Source: Vibrio hyugaensis
Lineage (GTDB): Bacteria > Pseudomonadota > Gammaproteobacteria > Enterobacterales > Vibrionaceae
Direction: 5' to 3'
NCBI RefSeq assembly: GCF_002906655.1
Contig: NZ_CP025794.1
Coordinates: forward strand, 682,001 to 746,000
Length of the DNA: 64,000 bases
The position numbers and the translations under genes were made by a program. Positions 30,610 to 40,091 of the stretch are shown here, piece after piece. The notes below the pieces were generated by a model. It was not told the origin of the DNA. It made no database searches and worked only from the letters and a program-made list of their open reading frames with translations. Every line of letters begins with the position of its first letter. Position 1 is the first letter of the stretch.

Positions 30610-31410
30610 CTACGCTCTTTTTAGCAATTGGCTTTGTTCCAGTACTTCGAAAGGCAAATTAAGGTCCAACTCAGCTTGCAATGTAGGTCGATGCAAGTAG
30701 TAACCTTGAGCATAATGAATACTTAAACTTTGTACAAAACACAAATCATTTTGTGTCTCTATTCCTTCCGCAACAAGGTCAAATTGGTACTTGTGTTTCC
30801 AACCTGCTAAACGTTGCCAGAAAGCCACATGCTGCTCTCCTTTCATCGTTAACAAGCTTCGATCCAGTTTGACAATATCTGGCGTGACATAACGAATAAT
30901 GTCTTCACCTTTATGGTTGCCACTCCCAAAATCATCCAACGCGATTTTAATTCCAAAGTGTCGACAAACCTTTATGTTCATCTGAAACATGGTTTTATCT
31001 GCTACTTCCGTCGGATACTGGTTTTTCTCGGTGAGCTCTAGCCAGAGTGTTATTTTAGCTCGCTTGCACGCATTAATTAAAGGTAAAACATCAGCAAAGA
31101 ATGACATACTCGCTAGATAAGACGGTGGTATGTTGACCGACATAAAACGTATAGAACTCGGCAATGTTCTCAATTCTTTGGCAAGCTTCTGGAATAACCG
31201 TTTAGTGAACTGATTTGCGTATCCCTCTTCATCAATGCAACGAAATGACGTCTCGATGCAACGAGGCGTGTCCCATCGTGTTAGTACTTCTACCCCTAGA
31301 GGGAAATCTACTTGCAAGCCATAGACGGGTTGAAAAATGGGATAGAATGCGCCTTTACGAATATCAGCAAAGACCTGTTTACATTTATCCTCCCTGGTTA
31401 AATTACTCAT
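30610..31410 (-). CDS. Stand-alone EAL-domain c-di-GMP phosphodiesterase (EVL variant)
   Basis: 266 residues from ATG 31410 (an ATG four codons earlier at 31422 is equally possible). It is a single EAL domain with no membrane segment or sensor. Catalytic residues are all present: the EAL Glu in GVEVLTRW (EVL instead of EAL), Asn in SVNIPP, Glu in LELTE, Asp-Asp in ALDDFGSG, Lys in VKLDRS, Glu in AEGIET and Gln in YAQGYY. It should hydrolyse c-di-GMP to pGpG. It sits upstream of, and divergent from, the four XRE-type paralogues, sharing a 160-base promoter region with the first of them. Confidence 0.88.
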   Translation of the reverse strand: MSNLTREDKCKQVFADIRKGAFYPIFQPVYGLQVDFPLGVEVLTRWDTPRCIETSFRCIDEEGYANQFTKRLFQKLAKELRTLPSSIRFMSVNIPPSYLASMSFFADVLPLINACKRAKITLWLELTEKNQYPTEVADKTMFQMNIKVCRHFGIKIALDDFGSGNHKGEDIIRYVTPDIVKLDRSLLTMKGEQHVAFWQRLAGWKHKYQFDLVAEGIETQNDLCFVQSLSIHYAQGYYLHRPTLQAELDLNLPFEVLEQSQLLKRA

Positions 31411-31573
31411 ACATAACACCATTCAAAAGTATTGGTCAGCCCAGAAGAGTAAATCAACGAAACGTACAACTGTAGGCATCGAAAAATAGGAATGCTTGAG
31501 CTTTGCTAAGCGCCCCCTATAATGACGAAGCAATCAATAACCTAAAATAAAAATAGAATGTGAGAGGTATTTG

Positions 31574-32491
31574 ATGTTTGGCGCCTATTTAAAGCAAGTA
31601 CGGGAAGAGATTGGACTAACACAAAAAGCGCTTGCCGCGAAGCTTAACCTCGCGAATACCGAATTCGCCTCAATCGATCCAGTGACCATCAGTCGTTGGG
31701 AAAGAGGGAGCACTGCTCCAACCGTTATTAAAGCCATAAAAGTACTAAGAGTACTGACAACCGACTTGATGCCATATTTGACTCTACTGCCCGACAAAGT
31801 CGACAATAATCTGTTTGAAGAAATTGCGGAACACCGCTTTAAATCACCTTGGGCAAGATTAATGATGTCCTCTTACGACGCTCCACCTCCTGTTGGTAAA
31901 ATTTTGGATTGCCCTTTGTTGGAAAGTCGTCAGGACAATTATCTAGCCAACCTCAAGCATTTCTTTGATAGCATTGACCTCGATAATAAAGCCATTTTTG
32001 ACATCGATTTATATCAATACCAACTTGAGCAAAAATCTTGCTCGAGGAAGTTTATCGATCAAACCACCAAAGAAATTCTAGGGCATCGAATCACTTTCTT
32101 ATTTGATGCAAATGAACTTAAACGATACTTATCTTCGCCATACCTTGCCATTCCACTTCAGCAATCTCGTTCTTACTCTTCGAGTCGAATAATGGCCATG
32201 TGTACAGTATCTCGCTACTCTTCCAATGAAGCCGTTTTTTGGGTAAACAGCGCATCGGGAGCTAGGTTTGTTGCTACCCACGCCAATATTCACGATATAT
32301 ACTTTTACGCAATTGACCAATGGTCAGTGAATTATATGGAAAGCTTGGGGGCAGAAAAGATCACCTTTGATACACCGCATGACGATGGTGTAATAAAAAT
32401 AGGTAATCAATCATTCAGGCGCTGCTTGTATCGAGTAGATAGTGCGAATTGGTTATCACGTTCTGAAGTCATTTCACTACTAAAAAAGTAA
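31574..32491 (+). CDS. XRE-type HTH protein with degenerate GNAT-like C-terminal domain, paralogue 1 of 4
   Basis: 305 residues from ATG 31574 (GAGG 7 bases upstream; a TTG lies one codon earlier). Residues 1-60 form a HTH_3 domain: FGAYLKQVREEIGLTQKALA, then VTISRWERGSTAPT. A linker of about 60 residues follows. The second domain begins at about 125 (FDIDLYQYQLEQ), has ILGHRITFLF, and continues AMCTVSRYSSNEAVFW, HDIYFYAIDQW, YMESLGAEKITFD and DGVIKIG...RRCL. The order of strands and the 'YxxxLGxxK' segment recall the GNAT fold, but the acetyl-CoA pyrophosphate loop (Q/RxxGxG/A) is missing. It probably binds DNA and senses something with its C-terminal domain. No characterised member is known to me. 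Confidence 0.75.
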   Translation: MFGAYLKQVREEIGLTQKALAAKLNLANTEFASIDPVTISRWERGSTAPTVIKAIKVLRVLTTDLMPYLTLLPDKVDNNLFEEIAEHRFKSPWARLMMSSYDAPPPVGKILDCPLLESRQDNYLANLKHFFDSIDLDNKAIFDIDLYQYQLEQKSCSRKFIDQTTKEILGHRITFLFDANELKRYLSSPYLAIPLQQSRSYSSSRIMAMCTVSRYSSNEAVFWVNSASGARFVATHANIHDIYFYAIDQWSVNYMESLGAEKITFDTPHDDGVIKIGNQSFRRCLYRVDSANWLSRSEVISLLKK

Positions 32492-32758
32492 TATACCCAA
32501 GTGACTTCAAGATGCAGGATTCAGAGCGTTGTCACTGGTTCGAGTTCAAGGAAAACAATGCAGTGTAATAGCAGGCTCTTTCCAAGTTGTTTGACGATGA
32601 AGTCGACTCAGTGACATGCTCCCAAAGGGCGAGTTGTCTTGGCTTGCATACTTTGTTAACGATTTTTAATTTAGAGCGACTAGATCTGCAAATCGTTGCC
32701 GCGTCTGCCAGCCAAGTCATTCTCGCTGAACCAAGCATCTCGAGGTTACTTGGGTATA
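32492..32758. mobile_element. Miniature inverted-repeat element, family 1, copy 1 (267 bp)
   Basis: Ends begin TATACCCAAGTGACTTC and finish with the complement-like GAGGTTACTTGGGTATA; the terminal inverted repeats span 24 bases with about 3 mismatches. There is also an internal repeat pair TGTCACTG / CAGTGACA. There is no coding capacity. It starts at the base after the stop codon of paralogue 1. Two more copies are at 34944 and 37086. Confidence 0.85.
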
Positions 32759-32915
32759 CACCAACGAAAAATCAGCTTAGGTACAGAAGAATGAAAAAGA
32801 TATAACTAAGCTCAGACATATAATTGACATGACAAAACATAACTCTGCCTAACATAAAAATAATCACTACAATTTATCTAGAATTTATTCATGTTCAAAT
32901 GGTTATGAGGGTTAT

Positions 32916-33848
32916 ATGTTTGGGGATTACCTGAAGCAACTAAGGCTAAAAGCTGGCCTTACGCAAAAGGAGCTTGCGGTAAAACTTAATTTAGTTGACC
33001 CAGAGTTTGTATCCATCGATTCTGTCACGATCAGCCGTTGGGAGCGAAATAGTACGGCTCCTAACCCTATTCGAGCAGTAAAAGTCTTACGCTCACTCAC
33101 CAATGACCTTCGACCTTATCTACTTTCTTTAGAAGTAGAAGAAGCCAACACCCAACTCAACGATTATCTAAAAGACCGATACCGCTCTCCTTGGGGAGGA
33201 TTGATGAGCTCTTCATATCAATCACGCAAAGAAGACACGAATAATGACGTGAAAGAATTGCCCTTATTTGAATCACGCTCAGATAAGTATGAAGATGGGT
33301 TAAAGAATTTTCTCAATAGCATCGGAATTGAAAGTGAATCGCTATTCGACTTGGATCTGTACCAATACCAACTAGAGCACAAAATATATGGTAAAAAATA
33401 CATTCAAGAAGAATCTGGCAAACTAATGGGGCATTCCCTCTCTTTTTTCTTCCATGCTGAAGAATTAGGTAACTACTTTAGTTCACCGTTCTTGACGATT
33501 CCTATCAAGAAAACTAAGGCATATTCTCACAACAAAAAAATGGCAATTTGCACACTCACACACTTTTGCTCCGATGAGCCAACCTTTTGGATCGATCATC
33601 GAACGGGGATCGATCACCTCGCGACACACGCGAATGTGCAAGACTTGTATTACTATGCCATAGATAAACTAACCGCCGATTACATGATCAGTATTGGCGC
33701 TGAAAGAGTCGCTTTCGATACACCACACAAACATGGCATTGTCAAAATAGGCACTGAGAAGTACATGCGCTGCCTACTCAAACTCGATAGTGCTGTGTGG
33801 TTAACAAGGCCCGAATTATTGCTGATATTGAGGAAACACTATGCTTAA
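32916..33848 (+). CDS. XRE-type HTH protein with degenerate GNAT-like C-terminal domain, paralogue 2 of 4
   Basis: 310 residues; GAGGG lies 5 bases before the ATG. The HTH part (FGDYLKQLRLKAGLTQKELA; VTISRWERNSTAPN) is nearly identical to paralogue 3. The C-terminal domain follows the same track as paralogue 1: FDLDLYQYQLEHKIYGKKY, LMGHSLSFFFHAEEL, AICTLTHFCSDEPTFW, DLYYYAIDKL, YMISIGAERVAFDTPHKHG, MRCLLKLDSAVWL. Charged linker residues at 78-115 vary most. It is followed after only 70 bases by paralogue 3, so these two may share a transcript. The conserved HTH with a divergent C-terminal part suggests shared operators but different inputs. Confidence 0.75.
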   Translation: MFGDYLKQLRLKAGLTQKELAVKLNLVDPEFVSIDSVTISRWERNSTAPNPIRAVKVLRSLTNDLRPYLLSLEVEEANTQLNDYLKDRYRSPWGGLMSSSYQSRKEDTNNDVKELPLFESRSDKYEDGLKNFLNSIGIESESLFDLDLYQYQLEHKIYGKKYIQEESGKLMGHSLSFFFHAEELGNYFSSPFLTIPIKKTKAYSHNKKMAICTLTHFCSDEPTFWIDHRTGIDHLATHANVQDLYYYAIDKLTADYMISIGAERVAFDTPHKHGIVKIGTEKYMRCLLKLDSAVWLTRPELLLILRKHYA

Positions 33849-33918
33849 TATTCAACTACCATAGTGTAGAGGCCACTTGTTAGTCGGTTCATTTCAATAA
33901 TAAAAACAAGGTAAATTT

Positions 33919-34866
33919 ATGTTTGGAGACTATCTGAAGCAGTTGAGAATTCAACATGGATTAACGCAAAAGGAACTCGCCACCAAGTTAAACCTGTCTA
34001 ACCCAGAGTTTAGCTCAGTAGACTCAGTGACGGTCAGTCGCTGGGAAAGAAACACTACTACGCCAAATACCGTCAAGGCCATCAAGGTACTTCGCCTACT
34101 TACGTTGGATCTAAAACCGTACCTACTTACTATAGACGCGCCGACGGTCGGTGCTGTCTTAGGCGATATTCTCTATGACCGCTTCCATTCTCAGCGTGCG
34201 ATGCTTATCTCCTCCGAATACGAAGAGCTAAAACCACAGGAAGATACGAAAATCATAGAAGAGTCGATGTTTTCAAATGAAACAGCGGAACATGCCAGTC
34301 GTTTAAAGAACTTCTTTATCAACACCGATGCGCACTACCCTGGTTTGATAGACTTAGACTTATTGAGCTTCCATAAAGAAAATAAAGTTATTGCCAATAT
34401 TTACCTAGATGAAGAAAGCAATAAAGTAAGAGGCCATTCCATCTCTTTTTTATTCAAAGTCGAAGACCTAGAACCACTGTTCACTAGCCCAAACCATGCT
34501 TTGCCATTTAGCTTAGTGAAACCTTATACCGAAAATCGAGACCTTGCGCTTTGCTGCCTAAGTCGCTATGCGGCCAATCAACAAGTGTTTATGGTGCTTC
34601 ATCCAACTTTGGTAGATTACCTAGCTGCGCGCTCGAACATCACCTGTATCTACTATTACTCGTTTGACAATCAGTTCTCAGATTACCTTGTTAGCTTAGG
34701 TGCCGAGAAAGTCGCTTATGACAGTCCCGACAAATCTGGTTCAGTAACAATAGGCAAGACAGCCTACCGTAAATGCCTACTCAAAATAGATGCTGCGATA
34801 TTATTGGCCCAACCTTCAATGCTATACCTGCTGCATCAACACCAGCGTAACATCAAAAGCCGTTAA
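33919..34866 (+). CDS. XRE-type HTH protein with degenerate GNAT-like C-terminal domain, paralogue 3 of 4
   Basis: 315 residues, with AAGG before the ATG. HTH: FGDYLKQLRIQHGLTQKELA and VTVSRWERNTTTPN. C-terminal domain: IDLDLLSFHKENKVIANIY, VRGHSISFLFKVEDLEPLF, LALCCLSRYAANQQVF, ITCIYYYSFDNQFSDYLVS, LGAEKVAYDS, YRKCLLKIDAA. Conserved across all four are the Gly-His of the 'GH' strand, the aromatic run YYY/YFY near the centre, the LG/MG turn and the basic-Cys-Leu segment near the end (Ala in place of Cys in paralogue 4). Seven bases of the start region (ATGTTTG) are the same in paralogues 1-3. Function unknown. Confidence 0.75.
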   Translation: MFGDYLKQLRIQHGLTQKELATKLNLSNPEFSSVDSVTVSRWERNTTTPNTVKAIKVLRLLTLDLKPYLLTIDAPTVGAVLGDILYDRFHSQRAMLISSEYEELKPQEDTKIIEESMFSNETAEHASRLKNFFINTDAHYPGLIDLDLLSFHKENKVIANIYLDEESNKVRGHSISFLFKVEDLEPLFTSPNHALPFSLVKPYTENRDLALCCLSRYAANQQVFMVLHPTLVDYLAARSNITCIYYYSFDNQFSDYLVSLGAEKVAYDSPDKSGSVTIGKTAYRKCLLKIDAAILLAQPSMLYLLHQHQRNIKSR

Positions 34867-34943
34867 CCTAAATATAACAGTTGTCTAAACTAGAGCCCTC
34901 GCGAAAAACGTAGTTCTGGCACATTTAGTGTAAAAGCTCTATT

Positions 34944-35193
34944 TATACCAAAGTGACTGCAACATGCAGGATTTGGTGTGTTGTCACTGATTGGAGCTCA
35001 AGGAAAGCAACACCGTGGAATAGCGAGTTATTTCCACGTTGTTTGCGATAAAAATCGGGTCAGTGAGACTCTCCGAAAGAGTGAGTAGTCTTGGTCAGGA
35101 TATCTTTAGGGCCACTAGGTTTTCAAATCTTTCCCGCGTCTACAAACCAAGCTATTCTCGCTAAACCTAGCATCTTGTGGTTGCTTAGCTATA
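34944..35193. mobile_element. Miniature inverted-repeat element, family 1, copy 2 (degenerate)
   Basis: About 250 bases, beginning TATACCAAAGTGACTGC and ending GCTTAGCTATA. It is alignable over its full length with copies 1 and 3 but with many substitutions and small deletions, so it is the oldest of the three. It lies between paralogues 3 and 4. Confidence 0.75.
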
Positions 35194-35688
35194 TTATTGA
35201 GCATACTTAAGTTAGGCAAATACTCTTAAATAAATATCTAATATACCCATATGAAATATGTTCTCCCACATGAACCTTTCTCACTTTTAAGATAAGACAC
35301 ACCAATAACTTACAGAACGAACAATTGTAAACCCTCATTAATTTTCACTCTAATTCTTCAATAAAGATAGTAAATTCAAGGCTATTTATCCCATTTTTAA
35401 GACAAAAAAGGCCTAGACTAGGCATCTTTTTATTGACCGATACAGTGAATGCCTTCTCAATTTAATAGCAAACATAATACGATTCTCATGATATTTATGA
35501 GCAAACATGACATGAATATTAATGCATTTTCAACCTCCTATCAGCCGCATCAATCCTAGAAGGTAAGTCGTAAATGGAATAACGTTTATCGCCTTCAAAC
35601 TATTCGGCAGAGGAATGTCATGCACATAACTTAAATGAAAAATAACAATTAGCTATAGACATGTTTTAGACACATGGGAGAAAGTAAG
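35194..35688. other. AT-rich leader of paralogue 4 with a terminator-like hairpin
   Basis: About 495 bases without a reading frame. At 35411-35423 GCCTA-GAC-TAGGC is preceded by an A-tract and followed by ATCTTTTT, which could end transcripts arriving from paralogue 3. The promoter of paralogue 4 should lie to its right. Confidence 0.5.
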
Positions 35689-36702
35689 GTGTTCGGGAGT
35701 TATCTAAAATCTATAAGAACCGCATTAGGTTTAACTCAGGAGCAGGCATCGATTCGGCTAAATCTATTAGGTGGTGATTTAGCAAATATAGATTGCGTCA
35801 CCTTCAGTAGATGGGAAAGGGGTATCACTCAACCAAGCCTCAGCCGACGCGTAAGAGTGCTTCGAGCGTTTGAGAATAACTTGCTGCCATACTTGTGTAG
35901 CTTGGGGTTAGACTCATCATTAAAGGAAGACGTAGAGCAGTTTGAACTCTCATTAAAACAACGCTATCAGGATGCGATGTCGATCATATCCGGAATTGAC
36001 TACAACAATGCTCATCAAGTCGAGCACAATGATATTGACGAGGAAGAACTCAGCCAAAGTAATGAACACGGTTTCATTCACAGTTTAAACAACTTCCACA
36101 ATCAGTTGAAGTCACTCAATATAAAACATAATCTTGCTACTATCGATTTGGTAGAATACCAAAAAGATGGTCGTGCTATCGCTTATAAGTACCTCTCTAA
36201 GGGCGAACTCGTAGGCCACAACATTGGTATGTTCTTTACGGAACCTACGTTAGAAAACGAAATCGAACGGACGAAACGAAACCGTCTACCGATTGATACT
36301 ATCGATTTAAGGTTAACTAAACCGCTGAAAGAAAAAGGGACATTTTCTTACTACGCGATTAGCCAACACTCAAAAAACGAACGTGTTTTTCGTAGGCAAT
36401 TGCACACAGAGTTTACGTTCTTGGCCCAAAACTCACACATCCATCACTATTATGCGAGCGTGACACTAAAAAGCTCTGTGGATGTGATGCTTAAAATGGG
36501 CTTCAGTGTCGCCGCTTACGAGGGTGAAAACCCTGTTGGCGCAATTAGAGTTGGCTCAAAACGATATACTCGCGCGGTGATGTACATTGAAACCAGCGAG
36601 CTTTTTACTCAGCCAGAGTTTCTTTATTTATTGACTTGTTGCGACGTTTGTACTGAACGCGCATGTGAGACCTCTTTAGAGCATCCCAATTGCATCTGTT
36701 AA
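35689..36702 (+). CDS. XRE-type HTH protein with degenerate GNAT-like C-terminal domain and Cys-rich tail, paralogue 4 of 4
   Basis: 337 residues from the GTG at 35689. GGGAG lies 8 bases upstream, and this start aligns with the MFG-YLK start of the other three; the ATG at 35674 overlaps that ribosome site. HTH: FGSYLKSIRTALGLTQEQAS and VTFSRWERGITQPS. The C-terminal domain is the most divergent: TIDLVEYQKDGRAIAYKYL, LVGHNIGMFF, SYYAISQHSKNERVF, HHYYASVTLKSSVDVMLKMG, AIRVGSKRYTRAV. Unlike its siblings it ends with six cysteines in 22 residues (CC, C, C, CIC), a possible metal or redox site. It is isolated from the others by about 820 bases and a repeat element. Confidence 0.72.
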   Translation: MFGSYLKSIRTALGLTQEQASIRLNLLGGDLANIDCVTFSRWERGITQPSLSRRVRVLRAFENNLLPYLCSLGLDSSLKEDVEQFELSLKQRYQDAMSIISGIDYNNAHQVEHNDIDEEELSQSNEHGFIHSLNNFHNQLKSLNIKHNLATIDLVEYQKDGRAIAYKYLSKGELVGHNIGMFFTEPTLENEIERTKRNRLPIDTIDLRLTKPLKEKGTFSYYAISQHSKNERVFRRQLHTEFTFLAQNSHIHHYYASVTLKSSVDVMLKMGFSVAAYEGENPVGAIRVGSKRYTRAVMYIETSELFTQPEFLYLLTCCDVCTERACETSLEHPNCIC

Positions 36703-37085: not shown

Positions 37086-37352
37086 TATACCCAAGTGACT
37101 TCAAGATGCAGGTTTCAGAGCTTTGTCACTGATTCGAGTTCAAGGACAGCATCGCAGTGTAATAACTGGTTATTTCCAAGAGATTCGACGATAAAATCGG
37201 TTCAGTGACAAGCTCCCAAAGGGCGACTTGCCTTGGCTCGCATACTTTGTTGACGATTTTTGATTTAGAGCCACTAGATCTTCAAATCGTCGCCGCGCCT
37301 GCAAACCAAGTCATTCTCGCTGAACCAAGCATCTCGAGGTTACTTGGGTATA
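37086..37352. mobile_element. Miniature inverted-repeat element, family 1, copy 3 (267 bp)
   Basis: It has the same length and ends as copy 1 (TATACCCAAGTGACTTC ... GGTTACTTGGGTATA), with scattered substitutions inside, and lies in the same orientation. Copies 1 and 3 are clearly closer to each other than to copy 2. Confidence 0.85.
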
Positions 37353-37656
37353 TATTATTGTCATAATATTCTTGATTTAAATGAATCCATAGGCAAATAG
37401 CAATTTAGCATTCATTAATATGCTTAATGTTGGTTAACTATATTATCACCAACTATTTAGATTAATAGATTTAAATAACATTTCATACCCTGAAAGCAAC
37501 ACGCTTATTATCAGATAAAATTTATGTAATTAACTGAAAATATATACATTTAGCAATTCATTGTTTTTTCACTTCATAGATGCTATCAAAAGTCGAATTA
37601 CAAACAGTATGATCAATCATTAAAACGCTATTGAAATTTTTTCTCAGGTGAAAGGT
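37353..37656. other. AT-rich promoter region of the small gene at 37657
   Basis: About 300 very AT-rich bases, no reading frame and no recognised operator. Confidence 0.4.
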
Positions 37657-38043
37657 ATGAAAAAGATTCGCTACCCATTTGATTTACACGGAACACTATC
37701 AATTCGGTATAGGGATAAAGTAAACCCTATCTTTCTCGATACAGATGAAGATAACCAATCAACCATTGATATAGATGACTTTGCTGTCAGATCATTCAGT
37801 TACGACTCTGAAGATCGTCTACTTAATATCTCATTACAAAAAGCCGTGAATTTGACTGAAATAGCCGATTGCGGAACGGTATTTACTGGCGTTGAGTTGG
37901 AACAGAATAATATTAAGCTAGACATCGTATATTGCCTATACAATGCCGGAATCATCAGTTCTAGTATCTCTTTTCCATTAGATGATGCATCTCCTGTTCA
38001 GTCTATTACAGTAGCGAAACCTTTAACGCTTCACTTGAAGTAG
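37657..38043 (+). CDS. Small cytosolic protein of unknown function
   Basis: 128 residues from ATG 37657; AGGTGA is about 6 bases upstream and a GTG three codons earlier overlaps it. There is no signal peptide. It is predicted mostly beta: DLHGTLSIRYRDKVNPIFLD, acidic DTDEDNQSTIDIDDF, FSYDSEDRLLNISLQ, NIKLDIVYCLYNAG. The family is not recognised. It lies at the right edge of the paralogue array in the same direction and shares its AT-rich character, so it may belong to the same acquired block. Confidence 0.6.
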   Translation: MKKIRYPFDLHGTLSIRYRDKVNPIFLDTDEDNQSTIDIDDFAVRSFSYDSEDRLLNISLQKAVNLTEIADCGTVFTGVELEQNNIKLDIVYCLYNAGIISSSISFPLDDASPVQSITVAKPLTLHLK

Positions 38044-38132: not shown

Positions 38133-40091
38133 CTATGGCTCTTTGGAATATTCTTCTGAACTCTGATAGAAGGCTCTCTTACGCTCATACATGGCCTCAT
38201 CTGCCATAGAAAACAGATTTTCAAGAGAGGTGAATTCACTTGAAGCTCCCCCTACAGAGAACTTAACTGGGTGGCGCTTGTGCTCAGGTAACTCTATCCA
38301 TTTATCTTCTTGAGCGGCTTCTAGGGCTGAGGTTAGTACCTCAAGCATCAGGCCATTTAAGTTTCTTGCAATAACCGAGAACTCATCCCCCCCAATTCGA
38401 TAAAGTAAGAATTCTTCTTTCAATACCGACTTAATCAATTGGGTTGATTTGGAAATCAGAATATCACCACGGTCATGACCATAATTATCGTTTAAAGCTT
38501 TCAAACCGTTAATATCAATAATGATGATCGCAACAGCGTCCCATTGCCCTTTAGCGACTGACTGACACGCAAATTCATAATCTTCATCGAACGCTTTTCG
38601 ATTCAAACAACGCGATAGTTTGTCTCTACGAGCAAAATCTTCTAACTCAAGCCAAGAGTAAAGCTGCTTCTTAAAGAGTTCGATCAAGATTCGCTCTTCA
38701 TCATTCATCGCGTAATGACCATAATCGAAATAGCCAAGTACGGTTCCCGAGGAAGAACGCATGGTCTTGGTTTGCGTTCCTTTGGGCCGAATGAAACTAA
38801 AACGCATGCCTGAGCCAGGTATCAAACGATTTAGACCTGAGTTAATAACTTCTGGAATAGCATGATAACCAATGCCAGCATGACCTGTTGTAAAATTAAT
38901 CAACGTCATCAACTTCTCTTGGTGTGCCTCTTCTCGAGTCAAGTTGGTGCGTAATGTTGCCGTTTGCTCTTCCACACGATTTTCTAGCTCTTGGTTAAAG
39001 TCTGCCAATTGAGCATTAGTGTCTTGCACTCGTTGGTTAGCTTTTCGCAAATCTTGGTTACGAACTTCCAATTCATCCATGTGATTGGTCAATTGCAACC
39101 ACAAAGAGTCCAACAAATTCATCAACTGTCTAAATTCTTTAAACTGAAAGCGCTTAGGTTGTAGTTCTGGCCGCTTATTGTTCTTAAAGCTACGCACAAC
39201 CACTTCCATTTGACGAATTGGACGTGTTAGCCAACGACTCGCTAATACCGCAATAAATAAAGTCACGACCAAGGTAGCAATAATGATGTTTAATAGTTGC
39301 TGCTTGGACTGCTCTAACTCTTGATTTCGTGCCACATTCGATACTGAATGAATCATGGTGACTTCAAGTGGTTCAATAAAGTTGTTGTTCAATACTTCAA
39401 TATTGGTCAGATGACGTGAAGCGTCTCCCTTCGTCTGGTTTACCGAGCCGTAATGGAAGTTCACACTTTCTTGCGCATATAGGAATGGCTGGGATATCTG
39501 GATCAGATCCTGATACGACACCAACACAACAAGATAACCTTGAGGTTCATATTCAGAATCAGGCAACAAGGTATATGGTAATAAAGGACTCACAAATACA
39601 ATGCCGCTTTGACCACCTTTTAGCACCAAGCCTTCATCAAAATAGGTGGTGTGGAACACTTTGCCTTGTTTGTATACCGCATCTGCAGCACGTATTTTCT
39701 TTAGTAACTTACTGTTTTCAAGATGATAAACCGAACCGTTACTCTCATACATAGGTTGCCAATTCTTGTCGATGATGTACGTGGTACTCACGTTGGTCGC
39801 CAGATCTTCGAAGGTCTCGATCATTTGCCAAATAATGCTTGAGTAAAGAACGTTGTCCATTCCCTGAACTAACAATCGATCTTTCGAGTACCAACGCGTT
39901 AAATTAGCAACAAAGGTGAGATCCTCCGTCACTGTTTTCTGAATACCTTGATTTGTGTTCTCGAGCTTGATTTCCTTTTGCACCAACAGATCTTCTTGGT
40001 GTTTATCAATCATGCTGATACCAACCCAATACGCTGGCAACAAAGAACCCATTACCACGATCAAAGTTAAGATATTACGCAAACTGATCAT
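38133..40091 (-). CDS. Membrane diguanylate cyclase with periplasmic sensor, HAMP-like region and coiled coil
   Basis: 652 residues. Membrane helix 1 is at about 8-25, a periplasmic Cache-like domain runs from about 30-265, and membrane helix 2 is at about 270-288 (IIIATLVVTLFIAVLA). HAMP-like RWLTRPIRQMEVVV, a long coiled coil at about 335-395 (NHMDELEVRNQDLRKANQRV) and a small globular region follow. The GGDEF domain has DKLSRCLNRKAF, DINGLKALNDNYGHDRGD and active site YRIGGDEFSVIA. It should synthesise c-di-GMP; no RxxD inhibitory motif is seen before GGDEF. Its ATG overlaps the stop of the solute-binding protein gene (ATGA), so the two are co-translated. By analogy with NspS-MbaA of V. 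cholerae, the binding protein probably reports ligand to this periplasmic domain. Confidence 0.88.
   Translation of the reverse strand: MISLRNILTLIVVMGSLLPAYWVGISMIDKHQEDLLVQKEIKLENTNQGIQKTVTEDLTFVANLTRWYSKDRLLVQGMDNVLYSSIIWQMIETFEDLATNVSTTYIIDKNWQPMYESNGSVYHLENSKLLKKIRAADAVYKQGKVFHTTYFDEGLVLKGGQSGIVFVSPLLPYTLLPDSEYEPQGYLVVLVSYQDLIQISQPFLYAQESVNFHYGSVNQTKGDASRHLTNIEVLNNNFIEPLEVTMIHSVSNVARNQELEQSKQQLLNIIIATLVVTLFIAVLASRWLTRPIRQMEVVVRSFKNNKRPELQPKRFQFKEFRQLMNLLDSLWLQLTNHMDELEVRNQDLRKANQRVQDTNAQLADFNQELENRVEEQTATLRTNLTREEAHQEKLMTLINFTTGHAGIGYHAIPEVINSGLNRLIPGSGMRFSFIRPKGTQTKTMRSSSGTVLGYFDYGHYAMNDEERILIELFKKQLYSWLELEDFARRDKLSRCLNRKAFDEDYEFACQSVAKGQWDAVAIIIIDINGLKALNDNYGHDRGDILISKSTQLIKSVLKEEFLLYRIGGDEFSVIARNLNGLMLEVLTSALEAAQEDKWIELPEHKRHPVKFSVGGASSEFTSLENLFSMADEAMYERKRAFYQSSEEYSKEP

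Follow-up and report, generated by a model that had tools for sequence, protein, structure and literature searches.

What is encoded by four consecutive genes that share a helix-turn-helix (HTH) domain and a C-terminal half that matches no curated family, and what links them to the gene for cyclic di-GMP (c-di-GMP) turnover beside them? The array lies at positions 31,574 to 36,702 of the window analyzed here, a stretch of 64,000 nucleotides from Vibrio hyugaensis (NZ_CP025794.1, positions 682,001 to 746,000 of the forward strand). We consider it close to an even chance, if slightly below it, that the array genes belong to a widespread, unannotated family of XRE-type HTH regulators with a motif-less GNAT-fold domain, many of which work as a local pair with an adjacent phosphodiesterase. 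The genes and domains concerned are the following (coordinates within the window):

30610..31422, minus strand: EAL-only protein of 270 amino acids, a predicted active c-di-GMP phosphodiesterase (Pfam EAL, 121.8 bits)
31574..32491, plus strand: gene 1, HTH and pseudo-GNAT regulator, the EAL-adjacent copy (306 amino acids if the start is TTG at 31571)
32916..33848, plus strand: gene 2, HTH and pseudo-GNAT regulator of 310 amino acids (protein modelled by AlphaFold2, AF2)
32916..33122, plus strand: HTH domain of gene 2, residues 1–69 (Pfam and AF2 model)
33231..33809, plus strand: predicted GNAT-fold domain of gene 2, residues 106–298 (range of the model matched by GNATs)
33919..34866, plus strand: gene 3, HTH and pseudo-GNAT regulator of 315 amino acids
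35674..36702, plus strand: gene 4, HTH and pseudo-GNAT regulator of 342 amino acids, the most divergent array paralogue (the alternative start GTG at 35689 gives the MFG-type start common to the array genes)

A first-pass annotation of the locus, made from the sequence and its open reading frames (ORFs), had described four tandem HTH paralogues. The four ORFs were confirmed, and the encoded proteins are paralogous (pairwise BLASTP E-values from 4e-34 to 1e-114), with 49, 39, and 28% identity of genes 2, 3, and 4, respectively, to gene 1. C-terminal identity was below HTH identity in all comparisons, in agreement with the description of the C-terminal domain as the more variable one. The HTH itself had been called almost constant, which is true of genes 1–3 (68–74% identity in the HTH halves and 31–43% in the C-terminal halves) and not of gene 4, where the respective values against genes 1–3 are 45–51% and 21–25%. 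Genes 1–3 also pass the 23-bit cut-off of the HTH_3 profile at 43.6, 35.7, and 36.9 bits, respectively, whereas gene 4 remains below it at 18.2 bits.

In the array proteins, Pfam and NCBIfam recognized the HTH alone, all other rows being sub-threshold. Genes 1–3 had no C-terminal Pfam family at E ≤ 10, the Pfam GNAT models left the C-terminal domain unmatched, and gene 4 gave sub-threshold Pfam rows for DUF1307 (residues 66–129, E = 0.059) and, within the HTH, for MqsA. Judged by these profiles, the libraries used contain no curated family for the C-terminal domain; its description as uncharacterized holds in this respect and has to be qualified by a distant relative in a published operon (discussed below). 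AF2 models and fold searches, carried out for two subfamilies, assigned a predicted GNAT topology to the C-terminal domain. The best structural matches of the modelled domains were members of the GNAT superfamily such as NAA60 and SpeG, and the second Foldseek row was 7byy, an entry titled “bacterial toxin” which we take to be a GNAT toxin. The pyrophosphate-binding motif A, located in the loop between strand 4 and helix 3, was represented by the pattern [QR]xxGx[GA]. This pattern occurred anywhere past residue 100 in 16 of 141 family members (17 matches), and by position and the GH mark none of the 17 matches could be assigned to the loop; 26 of 30 Pfam GNATs from the same genome, used as control, carry it. 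The place of the usual catalytic tyrosine, read in alignments from what we assume to be the canonical GNAT position, is occupied by methionine or leucine in all four array proteins and by tyrosine in L006 and L027, two of the sequences inspected. Six other residues (G172, H173, Y245, Y247, G274, and G279) are conserved in 22–23 of 23 array homologues. Structure prediction, fold search, and motif counts agree with the earlier view of a degenerate GNAT-like domain without an acetyl-coenzyme A (acetyl-CoA) loop, and according to the models the domain seems to be a GNAT fold whose acetyl-CoA motif is lost and whose active site is seemingly gone. In 18 of 118 genomes, a profile restricted to the C-terminal domain returned 48 rows. 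These lay without exception in frames of at least 310 amino acids and none was free-standing, so that the domain was not encountered outside the HTH context in these genomes.

Two other origins of the array proteins were considered and rejected. A phage origin would rest on PHROGs repressor-family matches, which start in the HTH (some rows reach residues 85–138), and a defence origin on PADLOC matches, which are weak and fall in the HTH half, including a chance-level row for gene 4 (E = 0.0072).

The EAL gene indeed borders the array, as the first-pass annotation had noted in proposing a link to c-di-GMP. It is transcribed divergently from gene 1 across a gap of 148 bp, and every catalytic residue checked is present in its product. 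The enrichment of EAL genes near family members turned out to be stronger than is visible from the window. Genes were called in 80 regions around nearly all hits of a search in the genus and in 40 regions around hits of a search in the order, and EAL and GGDEF genes were marked by profiles grown from the window EAL gene and two GGDEF genes; because the EAL profile started from the window EAL gene and was extended with the first 80 regions, it may favour partner EALs slightly. Genes of at least 100 amino acids from the same regions, at a distance of more than two genes, served as controls, and duplicates and weak hits were dropped. An EAL gene was directly adjacent to 44 of 141 family genes and to 4 of 562 controls (odds ratio 63; Fisher p = 4e-29), and this control rate is close to the ~1% of genes estimated from the 30 EAL matches in the genome of the window (5.6 Mb, two contigs). 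A first, cruder count with EAL or GGDEF pooled, and with duplicates and weak loci included, had yielded 36/113 versus 22/430. Since the family genes are not independent of each other, adjacency was also counted by clusters: an EAL-adjacent member was present in 17 of 48 clusters at 40% identity (in 15 of them half or more of the members were adjacent) and in 12 of 24 clusters at 30% identity. When neighbouring family genes are joined into blocks, 42 of the 124 blocks border on an EAL gene.

The geometry of the pairs differs by subfamily: the two genes are divergent in the arrays and in L081 and L182, and elsewhere convergent at gaps of 4–32 bp or on the same strand with spacings from +23 to −32 bp. 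All 11 residues checked are retained in 34 of the 43 adjacent EALs, including the one in the window. The other nine vary: the alignment shows no EAL motif in L081 and L182 and several changes in L072. At L056:4159-4971, L066:4205-4990, and L076:4340-5047, the arginine of the EAL motif is replaced by asparagine or aspartate and DDYD stands in place of DDFG; 6–8 bp separate the ends of these EAL genes from those of the convergent regulator genes, and judging from the substitutions the partners are possibly non-catalytic. While 20 of the 43 adjacent EALs are at most 300 amino acids long, a response-regulator domain (Pfam) was found in six of seven longer ones tested. The partner EALs belong to several clades and are mixed with ordinary EALs (FastTree, some nodes weak). 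The trees of paired regulators and EALs correlate (Mantel r = 0.81 for 42 pairs and, with 17 cluster representatives, 0.58; p = 0.0002 in both cases), to which joint vertical descent of the linked genes contributes.

The family extends well beyond the array. Seven further members were found in the same genome, the family occurred in 42 of the 118 genomes sampled from the genus (E ≤ 1e-3), and within the order it was present in 11 of 99 genera. The locus had been regarded as lineage-specific, which applies to the array only, as the family spans the order. The remaining 76 of the 118 genomes had no match at all, and a single copy of known function is not the usual state among the genomes sampled. 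One distant subfamily is also GNAT-folded according to its model, with a shorter C-terminal domain.

Family genes also occur in other operon contexts. A hybrid histidine kinase, an HTH-GNAT regulator, and an EAL protein are encoded in a row on the same strand at L093:2399-7049, L128:3839-7071, L072:3326-7884, and L186:1528-6060, an arrangement with the appearance of a complete signalling operon; the EAL protein of L093 was confirmed to carry a REC domain, and the L128 kinase frame gave no HisKA match. In L061, L068, L077, and L083, the gene order is GGDEF, HTH-GNAT, VpsT-like. This scrMNO-type order (GGDEF upstream and VpsT-like downstream on one strand) is absent at the array and was met in a relative at G000 C2:545323-546117 (L061). 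Over 97% of its length, the regulator of this type shares 90% identity with V. parahaemolyticus P0052, the model of which comprises an HTH and a GNAT-fold C-terminal domain. According to the respective publications, VPA0360 is scrM of scrMNO in V. parahaemolyticus (PMC11176486), VPA0358 is ScrO (PMC8276238), and VPA0359, named “helix-turn-helix transcriptional regulator”, is upregulated 4.0-fold with chloramphenicol (PMC10562556) and 2.8-fold in co-culture with E. coli (PMC12323305). Because scrMNO reads as VPA0360–0358, VPA0359 should by operon position be ScrN; this equation is drawn here, and the distant family relative is probably ScrN.

How could such a regulator and its neighbour work together? 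The regulators would bind DNA as dimers, and a dimer is suggested as the working unit because six genomes fuse two complete HTH-GNAT units in one chain of 619–620 amino acids (L091, L096, L102, L103, L106, and L190). Regulation would fall to the pseudo-GNAT half, with a surface that most likely serves docking and/or ligand binding, and the neighbouring EAL protein may set the state of this surface, on the model of PdeR, which keeps MlrA inactive in E. coli until it is engaged by c-di-GMP. Targets would include the own locus and surface-attachment genes, and a single EAL protein could serve several paralogous regulators of this array. The array proteins are one-component regulators that are possibly governed by a trigger enzyme. 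In its widest form, the proposal would be that a GNAT fold was turned into a docking and sensing module through which a dedicated c-di-GMP phosphodiesterase holds and releases a transcription factor, that this module diversified across many marine gammaproteobacterial lineages, and that in arrays one phosphodiesterase gates several regulators; this is speculative, and we regard it as rather unlikely to hold in full.

A number of observations weigh against a functional partnership of regulator and EAL protein. No direct EAL neighbour exists for 97 of the 141 family genes, several whole clusters (fused proteins, Endozoicomonadaceae, and others) are never EAL-adjacent, and GGDEF-only neighbours are not enriched (4/141 family versus 19/562 control genes). 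In V. harveyi (L044), copies of the gene 3 and gene 4 types occur in the absence of genes 1 and 2 and of the EAL gene, so at least these types can exist independently of the latter. The idea that the paralogues act on one set of operators found no support: the four array upstream regions contained no inverted repeat with 8-base arms and at most one mismatch, and no clear conserved block emerged when the upstream stretches (up to 230 bp) of five array-first genes were aligned, although both are weak negatives. A promoter scan gave 11 matches against a shuffle mean of 16, i.e., fewer than the shuffles. The phenotypes reported for scrMNO are contrary to each other, with less biofilm after deletion of scrO or of the operon (PMC8215210, citing the original) and more biofilm at 48 h after deletion of vpa0358 (PMC8276238). 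Finally, EAL adjacency is equally compatible with a regulator that merely controls the EAL gene. The main rival explanation takes this up and holds that the regulator represses or activates the adjacent EAL gene and itself, and that the GNAT fold binds a small ligand (acyl-CoA or another metabolite) without contact to the EAL protein. Such one-way control fits the 148-bp divergent region and the overlapping same-strand pairs, which are typical of local transcription control, and the six conserved C-terminal residues could line a pocket. However, many pairs are convergent and hence have no common promoter, and yet the association persists; co-diversification is not required by this explanation either, though joint descent explains part of it. 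Both objections are mild, and one-way control is a serious possibility, albeit one that we are inclined to doubt.

The other explanations fare worse. If the array copies were redundant duplicates that drift because constraint on them is weak, the pair of gene 1 and the EAL gene alone would matter, and the sister relationship of genes 2 and 3 and the variable copy number among species would be readily understood. We consider this improbable, as all four frames are open, orthologues of all four genes persist in both V. jasicida and V. owensii, and the C-terminal residues are conserved over 23 homologues. Fusion of a DNA-binding domain to an active acyltransferase that modifies the EAL partner or DNA-bound proteins would agree with the predicted fold and with the tyrosine in L006 and L027, but the missing motif A and the methionine or leucine at the tyrosine position of the array proteins make it very unlikely. 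A fused type II toxin-antitoxin system of XRE antitoxin and GNAT toxin is brought to mind by the title of 7byy, and XRE-GNAT pairs reportedly occur in toxin-antitoxin surveys; with a single chain instead of separate antitoxin and toxin genes, no acetyl-CoA motif, and a link to EAL genes, we find this hardly credible.

The array itself appears to have grown by repeated duplication, as initially proposed, and its copy number varies among species (four in V. jasicida, four in V. owensii, two in V. harveyi). V. jasicida and V. owensii retain orthologues of all four genes. In the array-subfamily tree, rooted on sub6, gene 4 types split from gene 1–3 types; genes 2 and 3 form a sister pair (support 100), which gene 1 joins more weakly (69). 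A single copy beside an EAL gene, in G011 and G046, is sister of the gene 1–3 group (100), and the EAL-adjacent copy of G012 is placed unreliably (45, 59). Further features in and behind the array are:

32497..32758, plus strand: miniature repeat element, 88% identical to the copy at 37091–37354
34951..35194, plus strand: miniature repeat element, 72% identical to the copy at 37091–37354
37091..37354, plus strand: miniature repeat element, reference and third copy, 3' of the array
37648..38043, plus strand: ORF of 131 amino acids without family match, between the array and the GGDEF gene
38133..40091, minus strand: GGDEF protein of 652 amino acids, next past the 131-amino-acid ORF

The miniature elements that had been noticed among the genes are present as three copies in and after the array. 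The element is ~262 bp long and has similar ends in inverted orientation; 42 genome matches were listed, including two fragments of 35–37 bases, and three further copies in the genome are 96–97% identical. ORFs of 131, 138, and 131 amino acids occupy the place of the 131-amino-acid ORF in V. jasicida, V. owensii, and V. harveyi, respectively. The block had also been described as AT-rich: a slight bias exists (40.8% G+C versus 43.8% in the window), and 5-kb stretches of the window are as low as 38.9%.

Several family members elsewhere have attachment-type proteins nearby, which were examined individually and with no control set. A beta-prism lectin/adhesion-domain protein is encoded directly upstream of the HTH-GNAT regulator and its EAL gene at L071:2774-7356, a giant protein with DUF11 and one with adhesion domains occur in L102, and fimbrial genes in L085. 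A chitin-binding lytic polysaccharide monooxygenase (LPMO) protein is encoded near the family member in L176. All six fused-chain genes adjoin a giant frame of more than 1600 amino acids that has the opposite direction and runs off the end of the region, the one in L102 being the frame with the DUF11 repeats. At L198:5027-5966 the family gene is broken into two frames, whereas its relatives in L172, L173, L184, and L202 have one frame of 313 amino acids.

A family of HTH regulators paired with phosphodiesterases would bear on an old question, the local action of each of the dozens of c-di-GMP enzymes that Vibrio genomes hold, by offering independent regulator/phosphodiesterase pairs for testing local c-di-GMP signalling. 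The GNAT fold would thereby gain another role in bacterial transcription factors, a regulatory and apparently non-catalytic one, and the family would suggest what the middle gene of scrMNO encodes. A literature search, in which most subscription papers were outside reach, found no account in which a family of HTH-GNAT proteins is paired with EAL genes.

Among known systems, the GNAT superfamily proteins NAA60 and SpeG share the predicted topology, but the array proteins have no motif A and have lost the tyrosine. A GNAT is used as CoA sensor in PanZ/PanM (YhhK), a stand-alone protein that acts on PanD and, unlike the array proteins, does not bind DNA. GNAT-type toxin-antitoxin systems consist of a separate antitoxin gene and an intact toxin gene, whereas the array proteins are single chains without motif A. 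ScrN resembles the array proteins in combining an HTH with a GNAT-fold C-terminal domain in the P0052 model, and differs in its place in a distant subfamily, in its shorter C-terminal domain, and in its operon, which contains a diguanylate cyclase instead of a phosphodiesterase. A functional model is PdeR-DgcM-MlrA of E. coli, in which a c-di-GMP enzyme controls a transcription factor by local partnership (PMC5052742). MlrA is MerR-like and the array proteins are HTH-GNAT proteins, and the contact between PdeR and MlrA is a reported one, whereas contact between regulator and EAL protein is a proposal here; the intact catalytic residues expected of the EAL partner in a PdeR-type module are present in 34 of the 43 EALs adjacent to members of this family.

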